Below, piece by piece: positions 1-28,805 of a stretch of 64,000 nucleotides of DNA. Every line of letters starts with the position of its first letter. Positions within the stretch are counted from its first letter, which is position 1. This DNA is from Cliona cf. orientalis (lineage: Eukaryota > Porifera > Demospongiae > Clionaida > Clionaidae): positions 1,385,501 to 1,449,500 of the forward strand of contig OZ005699.1 of NCBI GenBank assembly GCA_963930775.1, written 5' to 3'. Both the position numbers and the translations under genes were made by a program. The notes beneath the pieces were generated by a model that was not told the origin of the DNA, made no database searches, and saw only the letters and a program-made list of their open reading frames with translations.

Positions 1-449
1 ACACAATATTATTATTATCATAAGTTATTATGGATAGCTAGCTAGTTTGTTTTTGAACTGTATGAAAAACGTTTGGAGTAGGAAATCTGTAGGATAGGAC
101 AACAATGTATATTTTACTTACTTGCTAAGAATTTCCCCTACAATATTTTATATGCTCTGCCTGATATTATTATGAGTGGGAAATATGTAATTAATGTTAT
201 GTATACATTTTGGTAAGCAGGATTGAGATTCTGTAACAAGTTCAATATTATAATATTATTGTTATGAAAAAACAATACCCACTTATACAATATAAGGCTA
301 CAAAAATACACTTTCCCAAATTTATAGTTTCTGCTCATGGATGTCATAACTATACATTCTTTGTTGCTATGCATGTACTACTAACTATAATATAGCTACT
401 ACCACAGTATCCTCCCCTTAATGATGGTTATTTTGACTGTAATACGTAC
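1..449 (-). other. Intron or 3' part of the RTK gene, no exon seen
   Basis: The last visible kinase exon ends at 450 with a GT donor (gtacgt) and leaves an incomplete codon (phase 2). The remaining C-terminal kinase exon or exons must lie beyond the left edge. I see no reading frame here that continues the kinase (no RPxF-like motif); the sequence is AT-rich. Confidence 0.6.
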
Positions 450-3400
450 CAGCACTGTATCATGATGTGGTAGATGTCCCTAGGGCAGCCGGGGGGAGGG
501 GGGAGACGGAAACCACTGTCCACTTTCCTGATGACGTCATGTTTGGAGTATCCCTCAAACGGCTTGTGCCCGAGACTCCATATCTCGTACACCACACAAC
601 CAAAGCTCCACACATCACTTAAGCTGGAGTACTTCTTGTAGTGAAGAGCCTGTATGTACACCAAATTAATGCTAGATCATTAATTTTGGTAATTGAACTG
701 GAATTAGATCTACCTCAGGAGCTGTCCACTTTACTGGAATCATTCCGCCATGTGAGATGTAGTAGCTCTCATCTTCCAGATCTCTGGACATACCAAAATC
801 ACTGATCTGCACATCAACAACAATCGTGCGTTGGCATGATACTATACATGAAACTTAACAATAGCTAAATAATGGAATTACTGACTCAGAGCTGCATTGT
901 GCCCCTTTTTGCTATCTATTCATATACTAGAGAATGCGGCGTACTATTAGCTTATTATGGAAGCCGAGAAGGGAAATTTGTTTGATTCCGCGACCTGCAT
1001 TCCGTATGGTTCACTGGCATATTTATGCACATGGGATGCAGGTTGCGAAATTGAATGAAATTGCCCTTCTTGGCTTCCATAGCTTATCATCACCTTGCAA
1101 GTCTTCTCTTCGGAGACCAGTATGTTCCTGGCAGCTAGGTCTCGGTGGATGAAGCCTTTGCCTGCAAGGTACTTCATTCCAGCAGCTATCTCCTTGCAGA
1201 ACCTCAGAAGAGTATGGGGTGTGTTTGAAGGTGCCATTTCTCCTGGTCTGTAATTGGAAAGAACTTCGTGACATATTGGTCATACCAATTGCAAGAGAGT
1301 GTATTGCACTCTCTCATAATGTACTCTAAGACCGATACTACCAATTTAACGTAAGAAATTAGCATTAATTTTTAGGAATTCTCATAATGTGTATAATATT
1401 ATGGAGTGGTTGACGACCTTTACCAGAAAAGTGTATGTTTTTCAAACAATTTTTTTCTATTCGTACAGTATTCAGCAAATACTATTACCGGTATGTGACC
1501 ATGCAGCTAGAGACCATTTGTGACTTTTGTAGTGTGTAGCATGGTAAACATATAATGTACTGTAGTATAGACCCACTCTATGTTCGTGGCCGCTGTATTG
1601 TAGCTACTCACAGGTTTTGTAGAAAGTATGTTTAAAATTTAACTTGTTTTCAAGTCCCTCTACAAAAAGGTCCCTAGCTTGCTAGGATTACAGCAGACCA
1701 CATTAATTTTGTTACTACCGGTAAATAAGAATCTTACGTAGGCTGAATTTTCATGAGGTATCCTCTCAAATCACCATTAGACAAGAACTCAAGAACAATC
1801 ATGACCTACAAAAATTTAATTCTTTAATGTGTGCAGTGACCCATTTTTAAAAAATTTTCTCACTGGCTCTCCAATTGTTACTACTCCCATGAGCTTGACA
1901 ACATTGGGGTGGTGGAACTGCCCGTTGATGGCTGCTTCTTGTAGGAACCGGACCTTCTCAGTCTCACTGGCTTCCTCCTTCAGCATCTTCACTGCCACCT
2001 CCTTAGACCCTCCAGAGAGAAGCCACACCCCCTTCATGACATTACCAAACTGGCCAGAGCCAAGTGAATCAGAGAGTCTATAAGGTGTTAAATTTTATGC
2101 TCATATTAATAATGATTTTAATAGTCATATTCATAAATTCTCTCTCAGGTGCAGGCTATAGTTATATTTTTAGCAAACATTGTGGCATTGCCTTGTCATG
2201 ATTGACAGCTAGATGATCAATCATGATAAGGTGTGCATGTATAGCTCTATACAGAGGTCAGGTTCATACAAGAAGCAGCTATCAATGGGCAGTTCCGACA
2301 CCCCAATATTATGTTATTATGACACTGCAATAAGTGACAGTGATAACATGCAGTACATTGTGCATGTTCACTGAATCCCCAAAATTATTGTAATTGAAAG
2401 CATTCTCCTTATCATACATAACAATAACAAGGTCACATGCGATATGCTCAACGGTTACCCTGATGCTCAGCAAGAAATGTTTTTTATCAATCCTGTGTTT
2501 ACGAACAGAGATGTGGTTTACACAGATCTATACGGTTATTTTAGACTTTGATTATTTTCTAAATTAAGAGGCTAGATATTGCACAATCTCCGTGACAAGC
2601 ACACAACATTCACACCCATTATTATACCGTACTACTACAGAGTGTTTCCTGTACAAAACGTGTACACTAAATGCACTATTCATACACATTATAGCTACAC
2701 ATGATATACACAAGAATAGCCAAATGTACATGACTTACATAGCATAAATGCATATAGTACATAAACATACGTGCACACACACACATGCACACGCACACAA
2801 CTTATATGCATACTGAATCTGTTGTCGCAGTATTTCCCGGTATTTCTTCCTGGACAGCTGCTGATAGAGACCCTCAGTGTCTGAAGCAGGCTTCCAATAG
2901 TTGTCAGTGTTTTCAAAAAACTCTGGACCTTTATTGAACTGTTGCAGTTTGGAATATTGACTCTACAACAAAAATTAAAGGATTCTGTCATACTTAGTCT
3001 TATAATATAATTATTACTTATGATACTTGAGGCTATGATATGTATGTATTTGTTCCGTCGCTATTGAGACTGAGAGTATGTTGTGCACACACTGGACAGG
3101 ATAGTTTTCCTAGGACAATACCAGATTATGCTACTATTGAGGTACATGCAATAAATGTAGCCCATAAATTAGTTCAAACTGAATTCTCACCTCACCCAAT
3201 GTTGAATAAACACTATCATCATTGTTAGCTCCACTAGAGGCAAGCTTTCCTCGTTGGTCCTGTGCATAATATTATGTGAATGCTAATAATTATTATGATA
3301 ATTGGCCATGAATGCACATGCTTAATCTTCTGAACCATTCTACATTCCTGGAACATATTAAATTTTCATAATCTGAATAATTGCCCAGATTGGGGTATGT

Positions 3401-6400
3401 ATACTCTATATAGCCAGAGAAGTCTCGGGGGAGTGATGATGTACATAGTATAGTACATGCCTGCACGCAGTAGGAACTGAAACTCACCGCTGTTGGAACA
3501 AACACTCCCCACTCGTACAGCTTGTAGTAATAGTAGTCCTGTAACAAGGTCAAAAGTACACACACAACAACATACATAAAGCATGCACATGGACCAGAGC
3601 AGAAGTGCTTATGATGCATTCGATTCTTACATCTTGTTGAATATCATGCTGAGCAATAGCTACTGGTATAGCAGATGCTGGTGCACTATCACTGAGTGGC
3701 CTGTCATCAGACTCGAGGTAATCATTCTCTAAAGTTGGACCCCTCTCATTCCCTGGAGAATACAAAGATAACATTATTATTATCAAAATTATTAGCAGAC
3801 TTACTAGGAGTATTATGGAGCATTCGTGATTGAGCACTCATCTCAATGGGATCAATAACATTCACAGAGGCAGATTTCCTTCTTTGTTTTACCACAAAGA
3901 TCAACACCACCACAAAAAATAAAAGAATAAGCAATAGAAGGAGAGAGAAAACTACAGTTCCACTGATTATTATTATCTTGTCACTAGTGGTTGATGAATT
4001 ATTTCGTTTTATGCTTGCTCGAGTAGTAAAAGTAGACTCCTTAGTCATAGTTGCTGTACTACCGCTTGTGGCTAGTATGCCAGTAACATTTCTGATCATA
4101 TTTATGCTATCCGTAGCCATTACAGGAACATCTTCACAGTACAGAGTATTAAGCGTCAGCAGGTCTGTTTCTGGATTATAATCACCCACAATAATGGAAA
4201 CCATTGGTACTGAGGACGTTCCATTATTATAATAAGGAAGAGAGAAACGGATCTGGTCACACCATAGTACGTTGCCATACCATGAAATATTTAATTTGTC
4301 TCCAACTTCAATGTCAAAATCCTTTGGTGCCAAATCATACTCATATAGATTTAAGTACCCCGTTGGTTTTGGTTCCGTTGCATTAGTGGTGAATACAACG
4401 TTAGATGTTCCATTATTTGCTGTTCTTATGATCTGCAGTTCTGGCCAACCAACAGGCACACGTATATTAAATCTTGCTGCAATGATAATCTTTCTGAGAG
4501 GACCAAATTGAGTGAATGGCATACTCATAGCCAGATGAGGTATTCCAGGAAAGGAGAAAGAATCATTATCACATATATTATTCCTTGGTGCTTCCATAAT
4601 CATTCTCAGTGATTGCTCATTCAAAAATCCACTAGTACATTGCCGAATAGCTGGAGCTGTAATGGAAGTCTGTATTCACTGGACTGGAATACTGGACTCA
4701 CCTTTCACTCAAAAAATAGCACACAAAGGGCTTAATTTAGCCTCCTATAGCTTGGTGGCCATGGGGCGAGTGCTTTGTTCTATTAAATTAATATGCATTG
4801 ATCATCTACCTGGGCACTGCCTAGGCCTGGTAGCCTCAGGCCTGCATATTCCTGATGACACATGTATTGATCTGAGATTATTAAATGCCAACTATGCTGT
4901 TGTGACTATTAAACGTTACAAAAATCCTGCCCGCTATTAGATAGGATCAGCCTAATATTGTAAGCAAATAAGCATGATAAAGCTAGCTATAGCTACTTGT
5001 ATTACAGCCACAGCAATGCTCCCCTCCACCTCCCCAATGTCATGATCAGTTATGGTTTCCCCAAGAATATGAATAAAGTAATGCATCATGCTACATGTAT
5101 ATGTATACAAGAATACGAGTACATTTATGGTAAGTATATTTTTTGCATTTTCAATGTCAGATAAAATTACTTCATTAGCTCAAATTTATCATACTTGGAT
5201 ATCGATGTGGACAACAGTTGATCAAAAGAGTGAGGTAGCTAGCTAACAATAGAAACTGAGGAGCAAAACAGTGCAACATTGAAGAGTTGACCCTAAAAGC
5301 AAGCAGTATCTTAGTCTGCAGTAGATATCGAAGGCGGTAGGTGTGGCCGGCCCAGGGGCAGCACAAAGGGGAATATTAATTTGCTTGTTCAAGTTAATTA
5401 CTGAAGATAAATGATGCTATGCTGACCTGAAATTGATGACCCAATGTGATTAGGAAGCCCACTGTTCTGTGCATATGTACTGATATAGCTATAGAGACAC
5501 ACTAGCTATCAATGACGGAATAATGGTCAATTAAATCGGTATTTTGGGGTCAAAGGTGAGTCCAGTAATCCAGTCCAGTGAATAGAGACCGCCGAGTAAT
5601 AATTACTGGGATAACAAGTCTGTGGCTGTATCCATAATGCAATAATGCCAGGGGCCATGGCTACTATATTCAAATTTCATGAGGATCCTTTACATGTTTT
5701 CAATGGCTTACTGGTTTCTATTGCAATGTATGGCATCTCTTGAACTATATTTACATCAGATTCTGTTGGGCACGAAGTATACAATTCATCACAGGTCAGT
5801 GCCAGACCATAACCTCTGCTCTGTCTTAGTACTTTTATAGAATAGTTGCTTACCACCGGCCAAAAGGTACCAGTGCTTGAAGTATTGTGCCAGTGTTCAT
5901 TTTGCGGTCTATATACATTGTATTGTCTTAATCCAAGAACATCACCAGCTACAAATCTGACAGGTGGTGCATATGCAAAGTTAACCATTACTACCTCCAC
6001 TTCTTTGCCATCAATTGAAGATCTGCTGGGTGGCTGAAGAGAAGTTATTTCAATAGGATTCAAGGGACTGAAACTCAATCTGAAACTTCTGTAGTCATCA
6101 TCTGATTCAGTGTGCCATAGAGAAAACACGGGCCATGATGTTATCAAATTTTGATTGGACTCACGTTGTCTGCTGGCTACAAACATCAATCTAGTTAATC
6201 CACCACCGCACGTGAAATTCATGAAGGGAAAAAGCAATTGCTCCATTGGACCAATCTGGTCTGTTGCTGAAAGTATCGGTGGCGTGTAATCATCACCACT
6301 GCCATCGATAAACATTGCCCTGTTCAAGACTTCACTAATTGGAAGGATTTGGTATCCACTAGCACCTGTAAAAAGGTCAAGTCACAATGACCGTGAGTAT

Positions 6401-6508
6401 ATTGTAGTATAGCTATGTATCATACTTCTTACCATAAAGATATGAAAAAACTAGTGCTAGTAGGTACAGAGGTCCATACGACCACCGTACACCGAAATTT
6501 GAAACCAT
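450..6508 (-). CDS. Sponge-type receptor tyrosine kinase (3' end outside window)
   Basis: Single-pass membrane receptor that should phosphorylate tyrosines on itself and on cytoplasmic partners. Exons in coding order: 6508-6433 (signal peptide, MVSNFGVRW...), 6365-5712 (ectodomain 1), 4656-3805 (ectodomain 2, membrane helix, basic stop-transfer QRRKS), 3752-3631, 3538-3488 ([10 protein letters not shown]), 3259-3191 ([10 protein letters not shown]), 2962-2799 (juxtamembrane), 2077-1864, 1805-1738, 1247-1094, 806-714, 649-450. Phases agree at every junction. Kinase landmarks: glycine loop LGSGQFGNV, lysine in VAVKML, alpha-C glutamate in [18 protein letters not shown], activation-loop tyrosines [17 protein letters not shown] and DVWSFG. 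The catalytic set looks complete up to subdomain X-XI. The ectodomain halves resemble each other ([10 protein letters not shown] and [11 protein letters not shown]), suggesting an old internal duplication. It is the only kinase-bearing copy of a five-member array. RTK identity is certain; the ligand is unknown. Confidence 0.9.
4673..5584. mobile_element. Inverted-repeat DNA element in RTK intron 2
   Basis: The ends are near-perfect inverted repeats of about 33 bp (TATTCACTGGACTGGAATAC... and its complement ending ...CCAGTCCAGTGAATA). The element fills the intron between the two ectodomain exons; the paralogues have only about 90-120 bp there. No convincing transposase is visible, so it is probably non-autonomous. 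Confidence 0.75.
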
Positions 6509-6534
6509 TTTGTCCGTTGTAGCCGATGATTTTA
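6509..6534 (-). promoter_or_regulatory. Conserved leader just upstream of the receptor start codons
   Basis: Reading on the minus strand, an ATCATCGGCTACAACGGACA-like block lies directly before the ATG. The same block precedes the starts at 10208 and, more altered, 13302 and 15323. It is either a shared 5' UTR or promoter element, or simply part of the duplicated unit. Confidence 0.5.
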
Positions 6535-8219
6535 TAGTCTTTATTATACTCTTTAATACTTGTAATTGTGTAGACTGTGACTGTCCCGATTGTGCACGTA
6601 CTGCGTTACGTACTGCGCATTCCAATGACTGCACGTGCTGGTTGGAAGGGTGTGGCAATCAACAAGAACCTCCACGCAAGTTACTGATCAGACTGAGAAG
6701 AGGGATAAGACACAAGACCAGTATATAAAATGAGTCTTGTGAGGTCGATCAGGAGAGAGAGCTGTATTTAATAATATAATATAGTGGGTGGGTGACTCAG
6801 TGACTGAACTTGGATGACAGCCCCACCATTAGGAATTTGGTAGTAATAGAATGCGTGGTCAGTGAGACTATGCATACATCTGCATTGGAATATTATCACA
6901 CTCAGCGCTAGCTCAGAATGAGGCTCAATAATATTTTTATCTTGATACGAGATTGCAATTAAAGTTGACCTACACTGTTGAACTGCAGTCAACTTTCACA
7001 CCAGTAGCAGCGTTCATGCAGTCATGTTTGTCTCAATAATGTAGTTATGATAATAAAATATTATATTAAGTCATACCATGACTTTCATTTTTTTTAATTT
7101 CTGTGCATAGTATTTTGATTTGTATTTGCCTTAATCAAGTCTCGGTTAATGTCTCATGTAAGATGTATCCATAAATAAATTAAAAATATTATAGTACTAC
7201 TGTATTAACCTAGCCATGTAGCTAACAGTTGTGCCACGATCACAGTAGCTAAACACTAAACTGTCTTGATTTTGTTTTCCTAAAAATTAATGTAACAGTT
7301 GGCAATGAATGTTGTATAATAATATTATATTCGGGGCGAGCCTGAGCGAGCCCCGAATACACGAGGTACAGGAAGCGGTTTTATATGTATATTATATATA
7401 TTATATTTGTATGTTTGTGGGGTGATCATTTCAGTGAGGAGAGAGTTAAATTTTGAACGCGTAAGGTAATGGTCGTCATGCGCATGCGCATACGCCCGCA
7501 CTGCACCGTCGATCTGAGGGAAAGTAGGTGAGTGCTGTACCACTCTGGTAAGGCTTAGGTCCACGATTAACATCACTGGTAGACTCCACTTTCCTGAGCA
7601 TGAAGATGACTGCATGGAGGCTTATCCCCTCAGGGCCTGGCTACAGGTACTTGGACTCATGGTCATGGCATGTAGCTAGACTATCAACATTATTGGACTA
7701 GCTATAGCTATTATACTAGCAATCTGTGAGGCTTTCACTGTCGTGGTAGCGTCTCAGTCCTAGCTATTGGGGTACCAACCTCATGTGCGCACGCATACCC
7801 TGTGTGCTTTCAAAGAAATCTTGTGACTTTGGCGAAGGCTCGCCCCGCACAGATGATTTTCATCACCACTAGTAATATAGCCAGGAATGAAAACTGTGTA
7901 AAAAGCTAACATGATTTACGGTGCATGATTGCTTTAAATGGACACAGAATTATGGTGATATGCTGTGATATCATTCAGTAACTGTTGTTTTAGCCTGGTC
8001 CACTCAGCAGTATTACAAACAACATAAAAAGTATGATAATTATTATTGTGTCAAGTTATGCAAACCTTCAAAATGAGTTCATTGTATACAGTAGCAGTTG
8101 TAAACAGGGGACTGATATTAAAGTGAAGGGCTCAATTGCCTGTTTACAAAACCTGTGTTACCAGGCTTATGGTAATTAGCTTTTAATAGCGGTCATAGAT
8201 TATGATGCACCATGTGAGT
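6535..8219. other. Spacer between receptor copies 1 and 2
   Basis: No coding exon seen. It holds the 516-bp inverted-repeat element at 7332-7847. Flanking blocks (for example ATCTTGATACGAGATTGCAA near 6937 and TGTGCCACGATCA near 7231) recur in the spacers at 10.5-10.8, 15.5 and 16.9-17.1 kb. The spacers are therefore part of the tandem duplication. Confidence 0.6.
7332..7847. mobile_element. Element with 12-bp terminal inverted repeats CGGGGCGAGCCT
   Basis: The left end CGGGGCGAGCCT is matched exactly by AGGCTCGCCCCG at the right end. The inside is short and non-coding and includes one copy of the GGTAATGGTCGTCA motif next to GCGCATGCGC. No clear target-site duplication is visible. Confidence 0.6.
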
Positions 8220-10208
8220 TCAGAGAAGAGCAACATATTCATAATCATGTAAATATTTGTGGTGCATGAGTACCGTAAGCCACATTAGGGTCAGTTGGAA
8301 CAGTATTTGTGCCATATGCCTGGTTTGCATTCATCTCAACGGTACCATAGGCCACATTATTAGGATCAGTTGGAGAGTAGCTATCTGTGCCATAAGCCTG
8401 GTTTGCATCCATCTCAATGCAGTCCACTGCTTCATCAGGTTTGATTTCTTGTGTGGTGGAGGCCTGATTTGCGTCCATGATAGACTCACTGGCCATGGGA
8501 GGATTGTGGAGCATTTGTGGTTGAGTACTCATTTCAATGGGGTCAGTAACATTCATAGAGGCAGACTTCCTTCTTTGTTTTACCACAAAGGTGAATACCA
8601 CCAAAAATATTAGAAGAATAATCAATAAAACAAGAGAGAAAGCTACAACTCCACTGATTATTATTATCTCGTCACTATTGTTGATTTGGTTTGTGCTTGC
8701 TTGAGTAGTACTAATGGACTTCTTAGTCATATAGTCATAGTTACTGTACTAGCTGTTGTGATAGTTACAGCAACTTCTTCACAGTACAGAGTATTAAGTG
8801 TCAGCAGGTCTGTTTCTGGATCACAATCACCCACAATAATGGAAACCATTGGTACTGAGGATGTTCCGTTATTATAATATTAAAACAAGAGAGAAACGGA
8901 TTTGGTTAGTCTGTAGTAGATCTACATTGCTATACCAGGCAATATTTAATTTGTCTCCATCCTGAATGTCAAAATTCTTTGGTGCCAAATCATACTCATA
9001 TAGATTTAGGTATCCTGTTGGTTTTGGTTCTGTTGCATTAGTGGTGAATACAACATTATATGTTACATATGCATTATTTGCTATTCTTGCTATCTGCAGT
9101 TCTGGCCAACCAATAGGAATATGTACATCAAATCTTGCTGCAATGACAATCTTTCTGAGAGGACCGAATTGAGTGAATGGCATACTCATAGCTGGACGAG
9201 GTATTCCAGGAAAGGAGAAAGAGTCATTATCATATATATTCCTTGGTGCTTCCACAATCATTCTCAGTGACTGCTCATTCAAAAATCCACTAGTACATTG
9301 CTGACTAGCTGGAGCTGTAGAGTAAGAATTTCTGGGATAATTGTATCCATAATGCAATAATGGCTATGGCTACTATTATTCAATATCATGAGGATCCTTT
9401 ACATGCTTTCAATGACTTACTGGATTCTATTGCAATGTATGGCATCTCTTGAGCTCCATTTACATCTGTTGGGTACGAAGTACAAAATTCATCACAGGTC
9501 AGTGCCAGACCATAACCACCACTCTGTCTTAGTACATTTATAGAATAATCGCTTACCAAAAGTACCTGGTCCAGTACTTAAAGTATTGTGCCAGTGTTCA
9601 TTTTGCAGTCTATCAAGTTGTCTTAATCCAAGAATATCACCAGCTACAAACCTAACAGGTGATGTAAAGTTAATCATTACCACCTCCACTTCTCTATCAT
9701 CAATTGAAAATCTGCTGGGTGGTTGAAGAGAAGTTATTATATTAGGATTCAAGGGGCTGATACTCAGTCTGAAATTTCTGTAATCTTCATCAGTGTGCCA
9801 TAGAGAAAACACGGGCCATGATGTTATAAAATTTTGATTGGACTCATGTTGTCTGCTGGCTATGAACATCAATCTAGTTAAGCTACCATTGCAAGTGAAA
9901 TTCATGAAGGGAAAGAGTAGTTGCTCCGTTAGATCAATCTGGTCTGTTGCTGAAAGTATTGGTGATGTGTAATCATCATCATTGATAAATATTGCTTTGT
10001 TTATGACTTCACAAACTGGAAGGATTTGGTATCCACTAGCACCTGTAAAAAGGTCAAGTCACAAATGACCATGAATCTGGCAGGGTAGTCAGTATGCATC
10101 ATGGCTGGTGTATACAGGGTGATAGTCAGGCTACTTCTTACATAAAAAAACTAGTGCTAGTAGGTGCAGAGATCCATACGACCACCGTACACCGAAATTT
10201 GAAACCAT
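8220..10208 (-). pseudogene. Kinase-less receptor paralogue, copy 2, frame broken
   Basis: Same plan as the RTK ectodomain: signal exon 10208-10142 (MVSNFGVRW), ectodomain exon 10042-9421, and an exon from 9314 that reads through ectodomain 2, membrane helix and tail. Frame breaks against the paralogues: a small deletion near 9556-9570 in ectodomain 1; an insertion near 8875-8885 giving a stop after IRFSL; a TGA created near 8731; and an insertion near 8247 that hides the usual HDYEYV end. The tail still shows NQAYGT and NVAYGT motifs. Several independent breaks argue for a pseudogene. A lower-quality assembly or a null allele is the alternative, since the splice sites and most of the sequence remain well kept. 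Confidence 0.75.
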
Positions 10209-11238
10209 TTTGTCCGCTGTAGCCGATGATATTAGTCTTGAATACTCTTATTCGTCTAGTAGATAGTCGTAATTGAGTACTGCGGAATCTCGTTACGTAT
10301 ATATACAGGACTTACTCATTCGTAATTAATCACTGCATGGGCTTGCCCCCTGTGATCAGAAGGGTGTGGCTAGACAACGTACGAGACCAGAAGCATAAGA
10401 TCAGGATCAGAGCATTGTGTGTATAAGGTTGTCCAAGATGAATATCCGTAATGATATTTCTAAGTTCCCAGGAGTAGTATCACACTCAGAAGTTCAGAAT
10501 GCACTGCTGTGATATCTTGATATGAGATTGCAAGTATCTGTTGTCACGATAAAGCAAATTGGGTGCTGGCCCACAACTCCTGTACCGAATGATTATTACG
10601 TATCAGTTATATTATTCATATCACTGGACATGCATTGTGTGCATGCATGCAAGAAGAATGCAAAATATTTTTTGTTTTCACTTGCACAGGAAGGTTATTT
10701 ATGAGTTGTGTATGTACACGTGACATTGCCACTATGTATGCAATGTTTGATCATGTGTGTATTAACTTAGTCATGTTGTGCCACGATCATGGTAAACACT
10801 AAACTGTCTTGTTTCCTGCTTAAAATTAAACGTAACTGTAACGTACAGTTGAATGTTGTATATAGTCAGTAATAAAAAAAACTCTTGAAACTTGTGTAAA
10901 AAGCTAAAATGATTTAGCTACAGTGCATGATTGCTTTAAATGGACACAGAATGGTGACATGCATATGTTGGGATATCATTCAGCAACTGTTGTATTAGCC
11001 TGCTCCACTCAGGAGTAGTACTAGTACAAGCAATATAAGAAAGTGTGATTATAATTAGTCAAATTATGCAAACTTTCAAAATGAGTCAAGTTCAAGTTAA
11101 TTATTAAATTTTACAGAACAGCAAAAAGTGCATGTAGTAGCAGTTGTAAACAGGGTACTGAGAAATGAAGCACTCAATTGCCTGTTTACAACATCTGCCT
11201 TACCAGGCTAATGGCAATTAAATTTTGCTTTTATTTAT
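10209..11238. other. Duplicated spacer between receptor copies 2 and 3
   Basis: No exon seen. Blocks at 10509-10540, 10545-10590 and 10770-10810 are near copies of blocks at 15505-15530, 16877-16925 and 17105-17135. This supports segmental duplication of gene plus spacer. Confidence 0.55.
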
Positions 11239-13302
11239 TTAGCTATTATGGACTATGCATGATACACTATGTGAGTTCAGGGAAGAGCAATATATTAATT
11301 CATAATCATGTATTTGCAGTGGATGAGTATTATAAGCCACATTGGGGCTAGTTGGAACAGTATTTATGCCATAAGCCTGGTTTGCATCCATCTCAATACA
11401 ATCAGTGGTGCCATAGGCCACATTAGGATCAGTTGGAAGAGTATCTGTGCCATAAGCCTGGTTTGCATCCATTTCAATGCACCCCTTTTTACCAGCACCT
11501 TTGGTTTCACTATGTTTAATATAGGCCTGATTTGCATCCATCTCAATGCAGTCCACTGCTTCATCATGTTTGACTTCTTCTTGCAATTGTGTGGTGGAGG
11601 CCTGATTTGCGTCCATGATAGACTCACTAGAAGTATTATGGAGCATTTGTGGTTGAGTACTCATTTCAATGGGATCAAAAGTATTCACAGTGGCAGACTT
11701 CCTTCTTCGTTTTATAACAAACGTGAACACAACCAAACATATAATCAATAAAAGGAAAGAGAAAGCTACAACTCCATTGATTATTATTATCTCATCACTA
11801 TTGCTGATTTTCAGTGTGCTTGCTTGAGTAGTATTAATAGACTTTTTAGTCATAGTTACTGTACTAGCTGTTGTGCTAGTTACAGTAACATCTTCACAGT
11901 ATAGACTATCAAGTGTCAGCAGGTCTATTTCTGGATCACAATCGCCCACAACAATAGAAACCATTGGTACTGAGGACGTTCCGTTATTATAGTAGGCAAG
12001 AGAGAAACGGATCTGGTCATGCAGGCAATATTTAATTTGTCTCCAGCCTGAATGTCAAAATTCTTCGGTGCTAAATCACACTCATATAGATTTAGGTATC
12101 CTGTTGGTTTGGGTTCCGTTGCATTAGTGGTCAATACAACATTATATGTTTCATTATTTGCTATTCTTACTAACTGCAGTTCTGGCCAACCAACAGGCAC
12201 ATGTATGTCAAATCTTGCTGCAATGACAATCTTTCTGAGAGGACCAAATTGAGTGAATGGCATACTCATAGCCCTGATGAGGTATTCTAGGAAAGGAGAA
12301 AGAGTCATTATCATAATTATAATATATTCCTTGGTGCTTCCACAATCATTCTCAGTGTCTGGTCATTCAAAAATCCACTAGTACATTGCTGACTAGCTGG
12401 AGCTGTAGAGTAAGAATTTCTGGGATAATAATATTATTCTGTATCCATAATGCAATAATGCCAGGGTCTGTGGCTACTATATTCAAATGTCATGAGGATC
12501 CTTTATATGCTTTCAATGACTTACTGGTTTCTATCGCAATGTATGGCATCTCTTGAGCTCCATTATCTGTTGGGCATGGTTCATCACAGGTCAGTGCCAA
12601 ACCATAACCTCCACTCTGTCTTAGTACTTTTATAGAATAGTCACTTACCACTGGCCAAAAGGTACCAGTGCTTGAAGTATTGTGCCACTGTTCATTTTGC
12701 AGTCTATCATGTTGTCTTAATCCAAGAATATCACCAGCTACAAACCTGACAGGTGATGTAAAGTTAATCATTACCACCTCCACTTCTCTATCATCAATTG
12801 AAGCTCTGCTGGGTGGCTAAAGAGAAGTTATTTGATTAGGATGGACGGGGCCAACACTCCGTTGGAGATTACCATAATATTCATCAGTTTGCCATAGAGA
12901 AAACATAGGCCATGATGTTACCAAATTTTGATTGGACTCACGGTGTCTGTTGGCTACAAACATCAATCTAGTTAATCCACCACTGCATGTGAAATTCATG
13001 AAGGGAAACAGTAGTTGCTCCGTTGGACCAATCTGGTCTATTGCTGTAAGTATTGGTGATCTATGACCATTATCATTGCCATTGATAAACATTGCCTTGT
13101 TCACAACTTCATGAACTGGGAGGATTCGGTATCCTCTAGCACCTGCATGTACTAGTACTAGTTTTTTCATATCTTTATGGTAAGAAGTATCACCTTGTAT
13201 ACATGCACCAGCCATATATACTAGCTATAATAATATATTCCCAATCATTGTGATTAGGTACAGGGATTTATACCACCACCGTACTACAAAATTTGAAACC
13301 AC
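11239..13302 (-). pseudogene. Kinase-less receptor paralogue, copy 3, multiply broken
   Basis: Ectodomain 1 exon is 13142-12525 and the ectodomain 2/membrane/tail exon starts at 12402. Damage: the first exon has GTG where the others have ATG (13300-13302). The segment that should hold the end of exon 1 and its donor (about 13150-13185) is present in inverted orientation. A CAG-to-TAG stop lies at 12817-12819. Frameshifts occur near 12325 and 12288, and a deletion removes the ISWxGN region near 12020. The membrane and tail part is still open for over 200 codons, with EMDANQAY repeats (NQAYIK, NQAYGT, NVAYGT, NQAYGI, NVAYNT) and an IHDYE terminus. I infer a decayed copy. Confidence 0.8.
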
Positions 13303-13588
13303 TTTGTCGATCCGTTGTAGCCGATGATCTAGGTCCAGGAAAATTTTCCACACACAATGTGTTTTTGATCCGCATTGCTCCACGATCATGCATGGTATCA
13401 GTAATTATTTAAAACTGTTTTCCTTACTAAGTCAAACTGAAACATAATCATTGATATCATATTAGCTATACAATAATGCTAACATGTCAGTTCGGCTGAA
13501 TATGCTATCAACACACAAACATGAATGAATGTGAAGATCTCCAACCATTGAATAGCATATTAATAATAGTGCATCTATAACTACAAAG

Positions 13589-15323
13589 TCACACAATAAC
13601 ATTATCATAATCATGTGGCATAGTACTATCAAGGACTACAGGAGTGCAGCTGCTGTAAGCAACGTTTGATTCAGTATGAATAGTATTTGTGATGTATGCT
13701 TCGTTCATGTCCATTTCAATGACCTCTGCACTTGTAGGCTGGAACTCTGATCTGGAATCACTCTCTTGCATTGAAGACCTAGGCCTATTCATTTTATGCT
13801 TTTTCTGACGCACAAAAATTACTAGGATAACTACTACTATCAATAAGAGTGAACATAACACAACTATACTGGTGATAATACTTACAATAACTGGCAGTGC
13901 TGTATTATTGTATTTCAGTAACAGTACCAGACTGTGTGGCAGTGATGCCACTTGAGGGTAGTTCAATGTTAACATCTTCACAGTACAGAGTATTAAGTGT
14001 CAGCAGGTCTGTTTCTGGATCACAATCGCCCACAACAATAGAAACCATTGGTATGGCTGGGGATGTTCCGTTGTGATAGTAAGCAAGAGAGAAACGGGAC
14101 TGTTGTATATTATTACCATGCCATGAAATATTCAATGTGTCTCCGACCTGAATGGCAAAATTTATTGGTGTCAAATTATACTCATACAAGTTTAGGTATC
14201 CTGTTGGTTTTGGTTCCATTGTATTAGTGGTGAATACTATAATGTTAGGTGTTCCATCATTTGCCATTCTTATGATCTGCAGTTCTGGCCAACCAACAGG
14301 CACACGTATGTCAAATCTTGCTGCAATGACCATTTTTCTGAGAGCCCCAGATCGAGTGAATGGCATACTCATAGCCTGATGAGGTATTCCAGGAAAGGAG
14401 AAAGAGTCATTATCATACATATATATATTCCTTGGTGCTTCCACAATCACTCTCAGTGACTGCTCATTCAAAAAACCCATAGCACACTGCTGCCTTGATG
14501 GAGCTGTAGAGAAATTAGTACAAATTATTTAGGCTTGATGATAATTATTATTGAATGATTAGGTATGTATATTACATTCACATAGCTACTGGTTTCTATA
14601 GCAATGTAGGGGATTTCCTGATGTGTGGATCCTATAATACTAGCCGGGCATCTCATGTAATCATCACAGCTTAGTGTCAAGCCATATCCTCCTATCTGTC
14701 TCAGTGCTCTTATACTATACTGGTTTGGCTGAGCACTCATTGAATATTGTCTCAATCCAAGAATATAACCAGGCTCAAACTGGATAGGTGGCACAAAGTC
14801 GATCATGAACACTTCAAATACCTCTTGGCTATCACCAGACATAGATCTACTGACTGGCTGAATTGAATGGAGACTATTTGATTAGGGTGCATGGGTCCCA
14901 AGGCTTGCCTTTCCATGAAGTCACCACCTGACAGTGTATGGTGCCACAAAGAAAACACTGGCCATGATGTTACATTATTTTGATGACCATCGGGATTCAA
15001 CTGGTGGGCTCTGTGTGCCACGAAGATCAACCTGGTCATACTGCCACTGCAAGTGAAATTCATGAAGGGAAATAGTAGTTGCTCCGTTGAACCAATCTCA
15101 TCTATTACTGAAAGTATTGGTGACCTGTAATCATCATCATCACCATTGATAAATATTGCCTTGTTCATGACTTCACGAACTGGAAGGATTTGGTATCCAC
15201 CAGCCCCTGTAAACGATCAAGTCACAATAATCATGAATCTGGCAGGGTAGCCATACTAGTCTTCTTACCATAAAAGCATGAAAAAAATAAGTACAGGGAT
15301 CCATACCACCATCTGACACGCAT
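13589..15323 (-). pseudogene. Kinase-less receptor paralogue, copy 4, two frame breaks
   Basis: Signal exon 15323-15269 (MRVRWWYGSLYL), ectodomain 1 exon 15206-14590, ectodomain 2 to tail exon 14503-13589. Splice sites and phases fit, but ectodomain 1 has a 5-nt tandem duplication (ATTCA twice near 14859-14868) that shifts frame. Another one-base shift lies just before the membrane helix (near 13905-13933). Removing a 28-nt GT...AG segment there would restore frame, but that is very short for an intron. The tail diverges from the others (QKKHKMNRPRS, NEAYIT, NVAYSS) and ends HDYDNVIV. Pseudogene is the simplest reading; confirmation needs transcripts. Confidence 0.65.
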
Positions 15324-15531
15324 TTTGTCCACTGTAGCCCGATACTCTTACTCGTCATGGGGAGTGCCAAAACAAGTATCGCGCATGCGCACTCTGTAGT
15401 GAGTGATCGGAAGGGAGTGGCCAGACAACGGATAAGCATTATTGACCAGTAGTGGTATAGGCTATAGCTGCATGATTGGCATCACCCTCAGAGGCTCTGC
15501 CGTGATATCTTGATATGAGATTGCAGCATAT
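15324..15531. promoter_or_regulatory. Upstream region of receptor copy 4 with GCGCATGCGC site
   Basis: Immediately upstream on the minus strand is the family leader block in altered form (near 15324-15345). A palindromic GCGCATGCGC lies at 15381-15390. This matches the consensus bound by NRF-1 in other animals; function here is inferred only. Confidence 0.35.
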
Positions 15532-16822
15532 GGCATTCCAACACTGACAAAATTGGCAAGCTCAAATATATGGTCAAACGTGAGTCAGATATATGGTCAA
15601 ACTCAAATATGTGGTCAGAATGGTTGCCTATTTATGATCAAAGGCAAATATATGGTCAAATTTTATATGATTAAACTCAAATACATGGTCAAACGAAAGT
15701 TATGGTCATTTTTCCCATATATGGTCAAACATGCAGTAAATGTATGGTCAAAATTCAAGAAAATCCCCTTACATAATAGTCACGGATATGACGTATCTAT
15801 TAGTTAATTGGACCGACGTGACGTCAACAGAATCCGCATTTGCGAATAAAATTCGCGATCGCGCGCACAAACGTACACTCACGATCCTTACCTTATGTAG
15901 TCTCGTTCACGGACCGGCCCCCTTTAGGGCGGAGTCTGGGGACTTGATCATTTCGCTCCGCTCCTACGTGGGAGGGCTGGTGCGCGAGACGAGGTACAAT
16001 CGGACATTATATTGTATGGCAGTATGGTAAGCATGAATGAATCTACTATAGCTATTCATGTACTATAATATTATATCCTTCTGCACCTGGTGTGTCTTAC
16101 CTTAGTCTCGTAACCAGACCGCTCCCACTGAAAGAACTGAACGCTGCGGTGGGAGCGGTCTGGTTTCGAGACTAGTCTTACCTGGGCTAGCCTTATCCCC
16201 AGGCCCTCTCTCGATCTCCCAGTATTTATTATGAAAGATAGAGAGAGGGCCATGGGACACGGCTAGCTCAGCTAATTTCATTCATACTTACCTTACAATG
16301 TCCGATTGTACCTAGTCTCGCGCGCCAGCCCTACGATCTACGAAGGAGGTAGCGGAGCGAGATGGCCAAGTCCCCAGACTCCGCCCCAGAGGGGGCGGGT
16401 CCGTGAACGAGACTACATGTACATAGCGGGTAAAGAATCGTTTGTGCGCGCGATCGCGAATTTTATTCGCGAACGCGGATTCTGGCTATGATTCTATTGA
16501 CGTCACGTCGGTCCAATTAACTAATAGATACGTCATATCCGTGACCATTATGTAAGGGGATCTTCTTGAATTTTGACCATATATTTGCTTCATGTTTGAC
16601 CATATATGGGAAAAATGACCATAACTTTCGTTTGACCATATATTTGAGTTTGATCATATAAAATTTGACCATATATTTGCCTTTGACCATATATAGGCAA
16701 CAATTTTGACCACATATTTGAGTTTGACCATATATCTGACTCAAGTTTGACCATATATTTGAGCTTGCCAATTTTGTCAGTGTTGGAATGCCCTTGCCAA
16801 TTTTGTCAGTGTTGGAATGCCA
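15532..16822. mobile_element. Foldback element with ~500-bp inverted arms and ATATGGTCAAA subrepeats
   Basis: The arms 15532-16040 and about 16270-16793 are inverted copies. Each begins GGCATTCCAACACTGAC and carries a run of degenerate ATATGGTCAAA units, then a GACGTCA/CGCGATCGCG block. The final ~30 bp are repeated once more at the right end (to 16822). The central loop holds a second hairpin (about 16106-16175, arms CAGACCGCTCCCAC). The mirrored reading frames in the arms are by-products of the repeat. No transposase is visible. The element sits in a duplicated spacer. Confidence 0.85.
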
Positions 16823-17505
16823 TAGCAGTCACTGTAAATCTAGTCAATTTGGTACACCAATAGCTGCGAGTCTGTTATCACAATAAAGCAAATTAGATGC
16901 TGGCCCTCAACTCCTCAGCCTGTACCGAATAATTATGTATCCCATTCTTAACTAATGCATGCCACTGGTTGTGAATCCTCAGCAAGTGTACATGCATGCA
17001 AGAATGTAATTTTTTTGTTTTCACTTGCACAGGAGGTTGTTTGTGGGTGTGTATGTGTAAACTTGATATTGTCTATAGCTATGGATCATGTGTGTATTAA
17101 CTTAGCCATGTTGTGCCACGATCATGGTAAACACGTTTTCCAGTTGAATGTTGTATGAAAATTGTGTAAAAAGCTAACATGATTTTATAGTACACGATTG
17201 CTTTAAATTCGGGATGCAGAATGGTGACAAGTTGTGATAATAATATCATTCAGTACGGTAACTGTTGTATTAGCTTGCTCCACTCAACAGTAGGAGAAGC
17301 ATAATAATATTATTGTATTATTATTATGGCAAACTTCAAGTTAATAATTATTTACAGAACAGCAAAAATGTATGCAGTAGCAGTTGTAAACAAGGGACTG
17401 AGAAGTGAAGGGCTCAATTGCCTGTTTACAACACCTGCCTTACCAGGCTTATGATAATTATCATAATAGCAGTCATGGACTACAATACACCATAATAATA
17501 TGAGT
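16823..17505. other. Spacer downstream of receptor copy 5
   Basis: No exon seen. It contains blocks shared with the 10.5-11.2 kb spacer, including the GCCTGTTTACAACACCTGCC region near 17420. Confidence 0.5.
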
Positions 17506-20500
17506 TCAGGGAAAAGCAACATATTCATAATCATGTATTTGCGGTGGGTGAGTACCGTAAGCCACAGTGGGGCTAGTTGGAACAGCATTATAATTAGTGG
17601 TACCATAGGCCACATTTGGGTAAGTTGGAACAGTAGTAGCATTACTGCCATAAGCCACATTGGTGTCAGTTGGAACAGTATCTGTGCTATGAGCTGGATT
17701 TGAATCCACTTCAATGCAATCAACGGTCCCATAGGCCACATTAGGATCAGTTGGAAGAGTGTCTGTAGCATAAACATGGTTTACCTCAATGTAGTCCTCT
17801 GCTTCATCGAGTTTGACTCCATGTGTGGAGTCTGTGATAGACTCACTAGAAGTATTATGGAGCGTTCGTGGTTGAGTACTCATCTCAATGGGGTCAGTAA
17901 CATTCATAGAGGTAGACTTCCTCCTTCGTTTTACAACTAAGGTTAACGTTAACACAACCACAAAAATTAGAAGAATAATCATAATGAGAGAGAATACCAC
18001 AGTTCCACTGATTATTGTTGTCTTATCACTAGTGGTTGATAATTTGACTTCAGATTCTGAATTTACCGTTTGGTTTATACTTGCCTGAGTAGCACTCATG
18101 GACCCCATAGTCATGGTAGCTGTAGTGTTACTAAAATTTAATTTTGGATTAGTAGTGGTGCTAGTCAGCTCATTATCTGTGGCTGGTGTGCGGCTAACGG
18201 TGTTATATGGCCCCGGGCTATCTGAAGTTGTAGTAATGTTCATCTCCTCACACTGCGGAATATTTGATGTCAGCCAGTCAGTTTCAGGACCACAGTCACC
18301 AACAATAATAGAAACCATTGGTACTCTAGAGCCACTACTAATAATATAGTAGGCAAGAGAATAACGGATCTGATCTGTCTGACTTACATTACCATGCCAG
18401 GAGATAGCCACTTCGTCACCAATCTGAACAGCAACACTGTTATTAAATTCGTACTCATAGACATTAAGATATCCTGTAGGTCTTGGTTCAGTTGTATTAG
18501 TTGTTGAAGCAACAATGTCGTAAGTATTTTGTTCCACATTGATTCTCATGATTTGCAGTTTTGGCCAGCCAACATGTGCAGTTGCATTGAATTTTGCTGC
18601 AATAATTATTCTCCTAAGATGTCCTGACTGGATGAGTTGCAAGTTCATAGAATCTGATGTTATGATTCCAGGAAAGTGGAGAGGAGGCTGGGAATATCTT
18701 GAGGCACTCCAGACAATCCTCAGTGACCGTTCATTAAAAAATCCCATGGCACACTGCTGAGAGGGAGGCTCTACACATGTACAGAGAAGCAATAATCATT
18801 ATTTGAAAGATGCTAGCAAGTATAAAGGGGTAGAATAGTGATACCCATTGAACTTGTGTTACACCATGATCCTATTCTGTATGTATGCATTATATTAATA
18901 ATTGAAGGGTCGAGAACCAGAGTGGCCTAACCCCAAATTGAATGCAGGAAATTGTCTAAATGGACTAAACCAAACACCCTACTCTACCAAATCACTCAAA
19001 TTTTCAAAAATGTGAATTTTCTGTTGCTCATGAAATGCATTTTAAACATATTTTCAAGATTAGGGGGCTAACTCAACATTAATAAATTTTATGGGTTAGG
19101 CCACTCTGGTTCTGAGCCCTTCAATTCTAGTAATAGGCCTGGATATTGATTACATCTCACCAATTTCTATTGCAACGTATGGCTTTTCTTGAAGTGAATA
19201 TAAATTGCACTGAGCATGTGTACTCTGACAATTATGATCATAAACTGGTGTCTCGCCATAACCTCTTGATTTAAGTAGCTCTATGCTACTATAAATGCCA
19301 TTTCCAGTGGGTAGACGATTTTGCCATAGTGTTACTCCTAAGATATCGTCAGCACTAAACATGACATTTGTTGTTAAAGTAACTTCCACCATCTGATGGG
19401 TTACATTAATTCTGCTTAGGCTCAGAGAACCAGTTAGCAGATCATTAGGTCCAATTTGTATCTCCTCGAATTGATGCTGGTGTGGGCGCCACAGAGAGAA
19501 ATAGGGCCACGACATCAACCTTGTAACATCAAATTGTTCACTTGACCCACTGAGCCATCCAAGGAACGTCAGCCTTATTATTCTACCATTGCAAGTAAAA
19601 TTCATGAAGGGGAACAGCAGTTGTCTGCCCCCGGACAGATTCAGTGTCGGTGGTGGGTTTGGTATCAGTGGGGGGCCATTGACAAATGTAGCATTCCTCA
19701 CTACTTCACTAAATGTGGGGATTTGGAAGCCGCTTGTTTCTTGGACATCTAGTGCATGTATATGATGTTTCATTCAATAACCCTTTGATTTACATGGCAA
19801 CTATCGAAGGCAATTAACATGAGATCAGAATTTAATATTAATATTTTAATATCACAATGACGGTCCCGGTGTCATAAAATTTTGGGGACCCCATGAAAGT
19901 GGGGACCCCGGGTCCCTATTTTCATTATGATTTTGGGGACCCTTCCGTGAATTTGGGGCCCCTCCAAGTGTAATCGAGTATAATTCGATATTCATAGTAG
20001 AACGCGAAGAATCAGTGGTTGCCATGAGTTTACTTGGTTCAGCGGAGCTCATAATTATTGTTCGGAGAAGTTAGTGGCTAGCTAGAAACAGTATGGCTAG
20101 CTTGTTTAAAATTTTGAGATTTAGAGATTTGTTTAAGATTTAGAGATGCTGTGGGGATTAAACTACCACCAAAGCAAAGGTGTTATTGACAGAGATCCAT
20201 AATTATATTATTGCCTAATATAATTAGCAAATCGTATTATGAGTACTTTTGGTCGGAAGTGGGAGGAGTCAGGAAGAGCCAGGGATGATTATGCAAGTCA
20301 TCAGAAAGGCCCCTGAAGAAAAGGCCAGTAATAGTCCACATTGATCATACTGGCACAAAAATTAAGCTAAAATTAACCTTGTGCAAGACATGCCCCAAGT
20401 CTTGGGTACAGTATTTGTGTTCATGTTTGTGTTTGCATGGGGTACACACCTATGGGGATGACGTTAATATTACTATTGTACTATTGATTTTAATGTCCAC

Positions 20501-21519
20501 TGTAAACATCCACTACTTTCATAAATTCCTGCAACGTCACTAAATGTCTGCCACTACAGAATTTTGTCACAAACTGTATAAATATCTATTCATGTTTGTG
20601 TTTGCATGGGGCATACAACCTATGGGGATGACATTAATATTACTACTGTACTATTGATTTTAATGTCCACTGTGTTTTTCTGTAAACATCCACTAGTTTC
20701 ATAAATTCCTGCAACATCACTAAAATTAATGTCTGCCACTACAGAATTTTGTCACAAACTGTATAAATATCTATTCATGTTTGTGTTTGCATGGGGCATA
20801 CAACCTATGGGGATGACGTTAATATTACTACTGTACTATTGATTTTAATGTCCACTGTGTTTTTCTGTAAACATCCACTAGTTTCGTAAATTCCTGCAAC
20901 ATCACTAAATGTCTGCCACTACAGAATTTTGTCACAAACTAGTAAAAATTTAATGTCTGCTGCAATTTATACAATGTCTACTAGTGAGATTTACGTAAAT
21001 ATCCACTACTTTCATAAATCCCCACAGTTATAACATCTCTAAATAATATTACACTGTGATTTATGTAAATGTCTAGCTACTACTTTTGTAAATCCTCAGA
21101 CTTTTCTAAATGCCTGCAATAATGAATTTTGACACAAATGGCACCCCACTTAATTTTAGCATGTAACCACAACCTAGAGCTTGCATGATAATAATCATGT
21201 TACAAAATTAGCTAATGGATACCATGCGGGCTGAGTCATGTGCTGTCTAGTCAGTCAAGGTATACATGCCTACCGTCAAGTAAATTGCACTGGGAGTCCC
21301 CATTTTCATAAGAGGGTCCCCAAAATCCTGTGAAAATGGGGACCCAGGGGTCCCTAAAATATTATGAAAATAGGGACCCGGGTCCCCATTTTTCTATGAA
21401 AATGGGGACCCCGGGCCATTTTGGGGGGTCCCTATTTTCATATGACACCGGTTTAAATACTTACCGTCAGTAACTGTTAGGAAGCATACAAGACACAGAT
21501 ACCACCATCTATCTTTCAT
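17506..21519 (-). CDS. Intact kinase-less sponge receptor with NxAY-repeat tail, copy 5
   Basis: Exons: 21519-21465 (signal peptide MKDRWWYLCLVCFL), 19748-19161 (ectodomain 1), 18770-17506 (ectodomain 2, Ser/Thr-rich stalk, membrane helix, tail). Junction phases agree (GAC G|AT, ATT G|AG) and the frame is unbroken, about 635 residues. Ectodomain 1 keeps [12 protein letters not shown] and WPYFSLW; ectodomain 2 keeps GWPKLQI, TGYLNVYEYEF, ISWHGN and VGDCGPETD. After the basic VKRRRKS anchor the tail carries repeated PTDPNVAYGT-like units (four NVAY or TVAY copies), EVNHVYAT, and a final HDYEYVAFP. These resemble NxxY docking motifs for PTB domains. There is no kinase; the stop is in the same exon as the membrane helix. 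At the place where the RTK splices out (HNTP, A|gtaagt) this gene reads through A|GTGAGT. Either it is a scaffold or decoy receptor, or it is alternatively spliced. Ligand unknown. Confidence 0.85.
18901..19125. mobile_element. 225-bp MITE in intron 2 of receptor copy 5
   Basis: The terminal inverted repeats of about 30 bp begin ATTGAAGGGTCGAGAACCAG and are complemented by the end GGTTCTGAGCCCTTCAAT. The inside is AT-rich and non-coding. Confidence 0.8.
19866..21451. mobile_element. 1.6-kb inverted-repeat element filling intron 1 of receptor copy 5
   Basis: The left end CCGGTGTCATAAAATTTTGG is matched in reverse at the right end (...TTTTCATATGACACCGG). Both ends are followed inwards by GGGGACCC palindromic blocks (19885-19960 and 21295-21440). 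A triplicated segment lies inside at 20421-20945. No transposase frame is visible. The element accounts for almost all of the intron. Confidence 0.65.
20421..20945. repeat. Three tandem copies of a 170-185-bp unit
   Basis: Copies start at 20421, 20590 and 20774, each with TCATGTTTGTGTTTGCATGG, a CTATGGGGATGACGTTAATA block and GTCTGCCACTACAGAATTTT. Copies 2 and 3 share the insertion TGTTTTTC absent from copy 1, so they are the younger pair. Confidence 0.85.
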
Positions 21520-21701
21520 CTTTCAGTTACTCACGAAGCCTAAAATGCGTAGCTGAGTGTCAGAGTTCGTATATACTGTAGTATTGCGCCTGCGGAAAGG
21601 TCTTGGCCTACTGCGCATGCGTATTTTAGCCCACACGTGATGTGGGGGAAATAGCTAATTAACGAGACGTAGAGGGTGTGTCCGATCGATCAAGAAGAGA
21701 G
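21520..21701. promoter_or_regulatory. Compact divergent promoter region, 182 bp
   Basis: This region separates the start of receptor copy 5 (minus) from the start of the intronless gene (plus). It contains TGCGCATGCG (21612-21621, NRF-1-like) and CACGTG (21634-21639, E-box) in otherwise TATA-poor sequence. Shared regulation is inferred from spacing. Confidence 0.5.

Positions 21702-28709: not shown

Positions 28710-28805
<96 letters not shown>

Follow-up and report, generated by a model that had tools for sequence, protein, structure and literature searches.

Why should neighbouring receptor genes that share one kind of ectodomain end in two different cytoplasmic parts, some in a tyrosine kinase and others in a tail of repeated N-x-A-Y (NxAY) motifs? 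This question is raised by a tandem array in the sponge Cliona cf. orientalis, which we analysed in a window of 64,000 nucleotides (positions 1385501–1449500 of contig OZ005699.1, here C11, in a genome of 216.8 Mb). Positions below are counted from the first base of the window, and negative coordinates lie to its left on the same contig. On balance, we lean towards reading the array as part of a cluster of paired receptors, in which one ligand-binding head is joined to two cytoplasmic outputs. As in paired receptors, the genes are clustered, their ectodomains are homologous and their signalling parts differ.

Five tandem receptor units run along the minus strand from 21519 to the start of the window, in the transcription order E, D, C, B, A. 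As an earlier note on this DNA had described, all five have two ectodomain parts, a membrane helix and an exon for a signal peptide, which in C is degraded; signal peptides and helices were called by reading the sequence. Inside the window, juxtamembrane and kinase exons belong to unit A only, and a search of E, D, C and B (tblastn at E 1e-3; self-blastn for matches of at least 150 bases) found no exons of either kind among them. The note's claim that only the last unit carries a kinase is therefore correct for the window but is an effect of its edge. Within about 56 kb to the left (60 kb were scanned) lie five further minus-strand kinase units: F (−1.9 to −12.7 kb), G (−23.5 to −29.5 kb), H (−31.7 to −37.7 kb), I (−40.4 to −46.2 kb) and J (−46.9 to −56.2 kb). 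The same flank also holds a tail remnant at −23.2 kb and, on the plus strand, a kinase-less unit, K (−39.9 to −38.0 kb), arranged head to head with I. The array has six kinase units (A and F–J) rather than a single kinase copy, and we rejected the window as its complete extent.

The grouping of the ectodomains does not follow the cytoplasmic parts. A tree built from both ectodomain parts of 12 units, with broken units carrying X at their breaks and the long branches of J and H included, has three starred groups: I (kinase) with K (tail) at 100/99, E (tail) with F (kinase) at 100/100, and A and G (kinase) with B and C (tail) at 100/99. The kinase/tail label needs five changes on this tree, at least four of them forced by starred branches, and the labels are as mixed as in shuffles. 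The tree places kinase and kinase-less units as nearest relatives in three groups; one loss or gain of the kinase in one unit, as the note had supposed, was rejected (approximately unbiased (AU) test against one clade, p 8.9e-9). Judged by this tree, the ectodomain and the cytoplasmic part have different histories.

The DNA likeness of tail units to kinase units continues through the membrane helix and ends near the splice donor of the receptor tyrosine kinase (RTK) units. Homology ends (tail/kinase) at 17839/−8884 for E/F, 17839/3797 for E/A, 8496/−25261 for B/G, 8498/3807 for B/A, 11619/−25270 for C/G and 11620/3797 for C/A. The RTK donors of A, F and G begin at 3804, −8877 and −25262, and the six ends, which are non-independent events, lie between 2 bases short of the exon end and 9 bases beyond it.

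The clearest link between a kinase gene without visible lesion and an intact tail gene is a single tract shared by I and K. From ectodomain 1 to ectodomain 2, these two units, in inverted orientation, are 90.7% identical over 1110 columns. Ectodomain 1 is 97.3% identical at the nucleotide level over 552 bases and the intron matches in 98.2% of 57 aligned columns (with 14 gap columns). With indels set aside, the longest mismatch-free run spans 252 aligned bases, beginning in ectodomain 1 and continuing into the intron, and was reached in 0 of 20000 permutations that assumed uniform placement of mismatches. Synonymous differences are absent from the last 124 codons of ectodomain 1, and its first 60 codons show a synonymous divergence (dS) of 0.14; ectodomain 2 is 85.4% identical with a dS of 0.29, and the flanks align poorly. 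We read this stretch as the trace of gene conversion between an RTK gene and the gene of a kinase-less receptor. The head-to-head placement of the two genes is only suggestive of co-expression.

The second intact tail gene is unit E, which has three exons, a joined frame of 635 amino acids and zero lesions. Exon 1 (21465..21519, minus strand) encodes the signal peptide, from ATG to a GT donor in phase 1. Exon 2 (19161..19748, minus) encodes ectodomain part 1, is open with fitting phases, and is 82% and 67% identical to F at the nucleotide level in two pieces. Exon 3 (17506..18770, minus), an open frame of 429 amino acids, encodes ectodomain part 2, stalk, helix, NxAY tail and stop, and is 82–87% identical to F at the nucleotide level as far as 17839. 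Unit K is intact by its open exons and by its splice sites as read. The other three kinase-less units, all on the minus strand, are disrupted. Unit D (13589..15323) has a frame break in ectodomain part 1 and a second break before the helix, which puts its membrane and tail part out of frame with ectodomain part 2. Unit C (11239..13302) has lost its start codon and carries one stop and three frameshifts, and unit B (8245..10208) has two frameshifts in its ectodomain exons and a frame change before the helix. B is nevertheless 84% identical to RTK unit G over 1820 nucleotide columns, ending at 8496. Provided that the assembly is correct, B, C and D are apparent pseudogenes, and the four working kinase-less copies that had been supposed for the window reduce to E. 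An assembly artefact, which the note had considered as a way in which its reading could fail, is unlikely because the units differ by about 9–50% in the compared part and the 144 kb contain zero N.

Among the kinase units, A is intact throughout. It occupies 1..6508 on the minus strand, with its last exon outside the window at −66..−285, and encodes 974 amino acids in 13 exons. Its exons were placed by spliced alignment, with A's own hand-joined exons as the template, which checks the joins rather than predicts them. The signal peptide exon (6433..6508) is followed by the exons for ectodomain part 1 (5712..6365) and for ectodomain part 2 with the membrane helix (3805..4656; donor GTAAGT, first base 3804). 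Four juxtamembrane exons without NxAY (3752–3631, 3538–3488, 3259–3191 and 2962–2814) precede the kinase exons in the window (2077–1864, 1805–1738, 1247–1094, 806–714 and 649–450; PF07714, E 8.6e-85). Every intron is GT–AG, and the alignment has zero stops or frameshifts. Unit A has the features of an RTK: a signal peptide, an ectodomain, one membrane helix and a kinase domain with catalytic residues, the catalytic lysine, HRDLAARN and DFG all being present. Its kinase is closest to EGFR- and Eph-labelled chains among the best 60 of 825 matches to PDB sequences. One of its introns holds an inverted kinase piece of 22 residues, 73% identical to A's own (2254–2319, plus strand).

In the spliced alignments, H and I are lesion-free from the second ectodomain part onward and J from a late juxtamembrane exon onward, and the ectodomain frames of all three are open. 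The other two are broken: F has a stop in its signal exon, a stop and a frameshift in its kinase part and an altered HRD motif, and G has lost its start and carries two frameshifts. Ectodomain 1 of F holds an insert with reverse-transcriptase-like frames, named by eye as a long interspersed nuclear element (LINE; −7.6 to −5.4 kb), and what looks by eye like a Ty3-type long terminal repeat (LTR) element lies at −22.1 to −18.4 kb. With lesions in 5 of 11 units (B, C, D, F and G), the array is a birth-and-death array.

The tail motifs greatly exceed chance. Strict N-x-A-Y motifs number 3 in E, 4 in K, 5 in C, 4 in B and 2 in D, and chance would give 0.01–0.06 in the tails of E, D, C and B, where 2–5 were observed; the description of these as tails of NxAY repeats was borne out. 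A related unit on contig C14 has 2, and three tails on contig C7 have 5, 6 and 5. For each tail tested, 0 of 2000 shuffles reached the observed count. The motif is absent from the modelled cytoplasmic parts of A, F, G, H and I, the single NxAY of A lying in its ectodomain, and single NPxY-like sites occur behind the helix in I (NPTY) and in the C7 kinase genes (NPIY). As far as seen, NxAY repeats appear restricted to tails, and kinase units carry single NPxY-like sites. N-x-x-Y sites suit phosphotyrosine-binding (PTB) domains, and the NxAY tail matches neither the canonical immunoreceptor tyrosine-based inhibitory motif (ITIM) nor the activation motif (ITAM). The tails of B, C, E and K form one family (C and K are 80% identical over 347 columns), and the membrane and tail part of D is of a second kind, like that of the C14 unit and unlike the tail of B, C and E. 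Between E and K, the ratio of non-synonymous to synonymous substitution rates (dN/dS) in the tail is 0.26 on 68 codons. Across the genome, NxAY tails lie at 17 distinct places after two match lists were merged, 12 of them among RTK exons, among the matches listed. They are also borne by receptors with other ectodomains and therefore did not arise here after kinase loss, contrary to the idea that docking sites expanded in this array as the kinase was lost.

The same division of outputs recurs on C7. There the ectodomain of a tail gene at 273013 is 82–84% identical in amino acids to those of genes at 250108 and 244158, and 89% identical to them in DNA over about 665 columns. Both of these genes, known here from exon hits, have a membrane exon of the RTK type, with hits to juxtamembrane and kinase exons about 2–3 kb further on the same strand. 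The 273013 ectodomain is 54% identical to that of an RTK at 426980, which has kinase exons, and to that at 401287. A gene at C7:278397 was left unlabelled, having an RTK-type membrane exon but no match at the locus to A's kinase. Between 241 and 604 kb of C7, where RTKs are dense, 11 of 11 tail places lie within about 17 kb of a kinase exon, and at 421–436 kb and 451–458 kb tail genes stand beside RTKs with other heads, with intervening exons, one of which has a short NEAY. These comparisons make C7 a second cluster in which one ectodomain is carried by both kinase and tail genes. On C14 there is a partial copy besides the one kinase-less unit, whose tail is of the second kind. A kinase about 17–22 kb away on the other strand has the first kinase exon most like A's outside the array (82%), among the matches listed; no ectodomain of the family was found in the 9 kb examined around it, and we therefore claim no C14 pair.

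We propose that two-part ectodomains of a single type, which probably bind one ligand class, are joined either to a juxtamembrane part with an active-looking kinase or to a kinase-less tail with several NxAY motifs. Examples of the kinase form are A, intact throughout, and H, I and J, lesion-free where modelled; those of the tail form are the intact E and K. Duplication, exchange of the cytoplasmic part at the splice donor of the membrane exon and gene conversion would make and homogenize such pairs, many copies of which would die. On a single cell, both partners would encounter a common ligand or one another, and the NxAY tyrosines would be phosphorylated by the kinase partner or by a Src-type kinase. 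Phosphorylated NxAY may then recruit PTB or SH2 adaptors or a phosphatase, by which the kinase signal would be amplified or restrained. K and E would, through PTB binding, be substrates and scaffolds of kinase receptors, and the anatomy would also suit inhibitors or decoys. We infer that the partners have a ligand in common, are co-expressed and have phosphorylated tails, and we likewise infer the sign of the signal. The earlier proposal that the kinase-less copies are partners of the RTK is strengthened by the shared ectodomains, the five label changes and the I/K tract, but not in the single-event origin that came with it.

Several observations weigh against pairing. Only E and K are intact among the five kinase-less units of the array, F, the nearest kinase relative of E, is broken, and the first exon of I, the proposed kinase partner of K, was searched for and not found. 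Homogenization of the heads by conversion was seen in the I/K pair alone and not shown for E/F or A/B/C/G, and conversion between neighbours can be neutral. Tail pairs other than E/K have dN/dS values of 0.20–0.67, with broken partners. The motif is not exclusive to tails, since in kinase unit J a single NPAY follows the helix, outside the modelled part. The C7 tree has zero starred branches, and identities were used there instead. Finally, 5 of the 17 tail places (two on C19 and one each on C12, C14 and C7) have no kinase exon within 100 kb, among the matches listed. The main objection is a neutral birth-and-death account, in which tandem RTK duplicates lose kinase exons, recombine by chance with a neighbouring tail gene and decay, the shared sequence being due to neutral local conversion, without any partner role. 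The lesions in B, C, D, F and G, 5 of 11 array units, and the LTR-retroelement-like and LINE-like elements within the cluster speak for it. However, E is lesion-free over its whole frame and K over its exons as read, their tails have the dN/dS of 0.26 given above, three separate ectodomain groups each contain both outputs, and the same split recurs in the C7 cluster. The intact E and K frames, the E/K ratio and the C7 cluster speak against a purely neutral origin without settling the matter, and we regard that account as unlikely, though a serious competitor.

A protocadherin-like arrangement, in which the heads of E, C and B are variable exons that can also be spliced from a GTGAGT donor to the juxtamembrane and kinase exons of A, giving every head both a tail form and a kinase form, is possible in principle, judging by a site that E reads through. 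This GTGAGT (17841..17846, minus strand, donor score 8.15) lies at the place of the RTK donor, on the border between kinase and tail homology, and the same site is read through by C (at 11627) and by B (at 8489); the corresponding donor of A, F and G is GTAAGT. The scores of E (8.15), C (8.15) and B (9.19) are in the top 0.7–1.6% of 4555 GT sites; the donor matrix was made from 55 GT-starting introns of six kinase units (median 7.97), which are paralogous and so not independent, and GTGAGT is used as a donor in 5 of these 55 modelled introns. The units of the window also lie on one strand with the kinase exons last. Yet all six kinase units possess kinase exons of their own, the tails terminate in their own stop, and K bears the same tail without the donor, so the tail is independent of it; shared splicing seems very improbable to us. 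Somewhat less remote, though still improbable, is that the kinase-less receptors are decoys that draw ligand away from kinase receptors, with the tail serving uptake through an NxxY sorting signal. NxxY-type motifs can act as uptake signals, and the ectodomains are common to kinase and kinase-less units, but the tails of B, C, E and K have three to five NxAY each, which would exceed what a sorting signal needs.

If paired receptors are indeed what this cluster holds, the cytoplasmic part is the main difference within pairs, above all in I/K, and also in E/F, in A or G with B or C, and in C7 273013 with 250108 and 244158. Such pairs would allow the effects of a kinase and of a docking tail to be compared directly under a common head, and counts based on kinases alone would miss part of such receptor families.

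The ectodomain itself matches no known family in the searches made. Part 1 of A, E and K reached no Pfam cut-off (no family at all), part-2 exons gave only weak Pfam matches below the cut-off, at the stalk and helix part, and a profile of part 2 found nothing convincing among PDB sequences (best E 0.18–0.19). We do not claim a fold from AlphaFold (mean pLDDT 54 for part 2 and 30 for part 1) or from Foldseek (best E 0.006, with scattered and mostly all-beta matches). With the second ectodomain part of E as query, all 16 genome matches at E 0.001 lie on C11 and C14. A related ectodomain unit, which seems to represent a large family of receptor domains, has at least 77 matches (E 1e-10) across six places: C5:1683982-1738201, C7:244158-475914, C11:2386331-2398293, C11:8014639-8059742, C3:6042882-6046624 and C14:1001501-1034462. 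RTK exons of the same subfamily lie near five of the six, and none on C14, among the matches listed; the members tested reached no Pfam model.

Other features were seen in and around the array. Between D and E lies a probable mobile element, an imperfect inverted repeat at 15532–16792 (about 80% over 1317 columns). An open frame of 669 amino acids (21663–23672, plus strand) reaches the cut-off of no Pfam family and, judged by eye, contains three internal repeats; parts of this frame are found again next to kinase units A, F and G, and it was therefore duplicated along with the receptors. Exons at about 26600–30000 (minus strand) resemble those for the EGF-like and membrane-spanning portion of an integrin beta subunit, with only a Pfam EGF_2 match below the cut-off (E 0.0007). 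Elsewhere in the genome, a frame of 2925 amino acids with ten successive PF07714 matches (C17:2316562-2324877, minus strand) may encode a multi-kinase protein, three such matches share a frame of 1326 amino acids (C2:7894805-7897624), and four lie close together at C6:5771139-5774296.

How does this cluster compare with known receptor systems? Clustered protocadherins are alike in having an array of head exons on one strand with similar exon ends, and unlike in their shared constant region, since every sponge RTK here has kinase exons to itself and the intact tail units end in stops of their own. Allorecognition loci of the Alr, fester and fuhc type also hold variable surface receptors in clusters, a likeness known here from arrangement rather than from sequence comparison. 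Alr genes are clustered variable allorecognition receptors, and published work describes such clusters in Botryllus. The array also resembles the RTK arrays and Eph-like receptors of sponges and choanoflagellates in being a lineage-specific RTK expansion. In PMC6485061, one choanoflagellate Eph-like receptor is reported to lack its kinase domain, and the head and kinase phylogenies of sponge Ephs differ. Clustered kinase-less partners with shared ectodomains are not described in the portions consulted of that paper and of PMC8662651, and our search of mostly open-access literature found no description of such partners of sponge RTKs.

The closest parallel is with vertebrate immune cells and their paired receptors, activating and inhibitory. 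PIR, KIR and LILR are paired receptors, and in vertebrate pairs neither partner is known to carry a kinase, the outputs being ITIM against ITAM or an adaptor. Like the sponge genes, vertebrate pairs (Siglec-11/-16, CEACAM1/3, CD300A/C, PIR, KIR and LILR) are neighbours with closely similar heads and different signalling parts, and they show gene conversion of the heads and broken copies. In Siglec-11 and Siglec-16, repeated conversion keeps heads and binding alike although the two signal differently, and one of the partners commonly has a broken allele (PMC5701461); published abstracts likewise treat CEACAM and CD300 as paired-receptor families. The sponge pair differs in having a kinase in one partner and NxAY repeats in the other, and an ectodomain without a Pfam family. 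More broadly, and only as a tentative suggestion that we doubt more than we believe, paired receptors may be an old animal device independent of immunoglobulin folds and of ITIM and ITAM. RTKs would be matched with NxAY-tail receptors in at least two clusters, with heads kept alike by conversion, and one ligand would set a balance between kinase and docking, possibly in recognition of self and non-self or of microbes. If the pairing holds, the paired-receptor logic of vertebrate immunity is also found in a sponge, with the kinase built into one partner.

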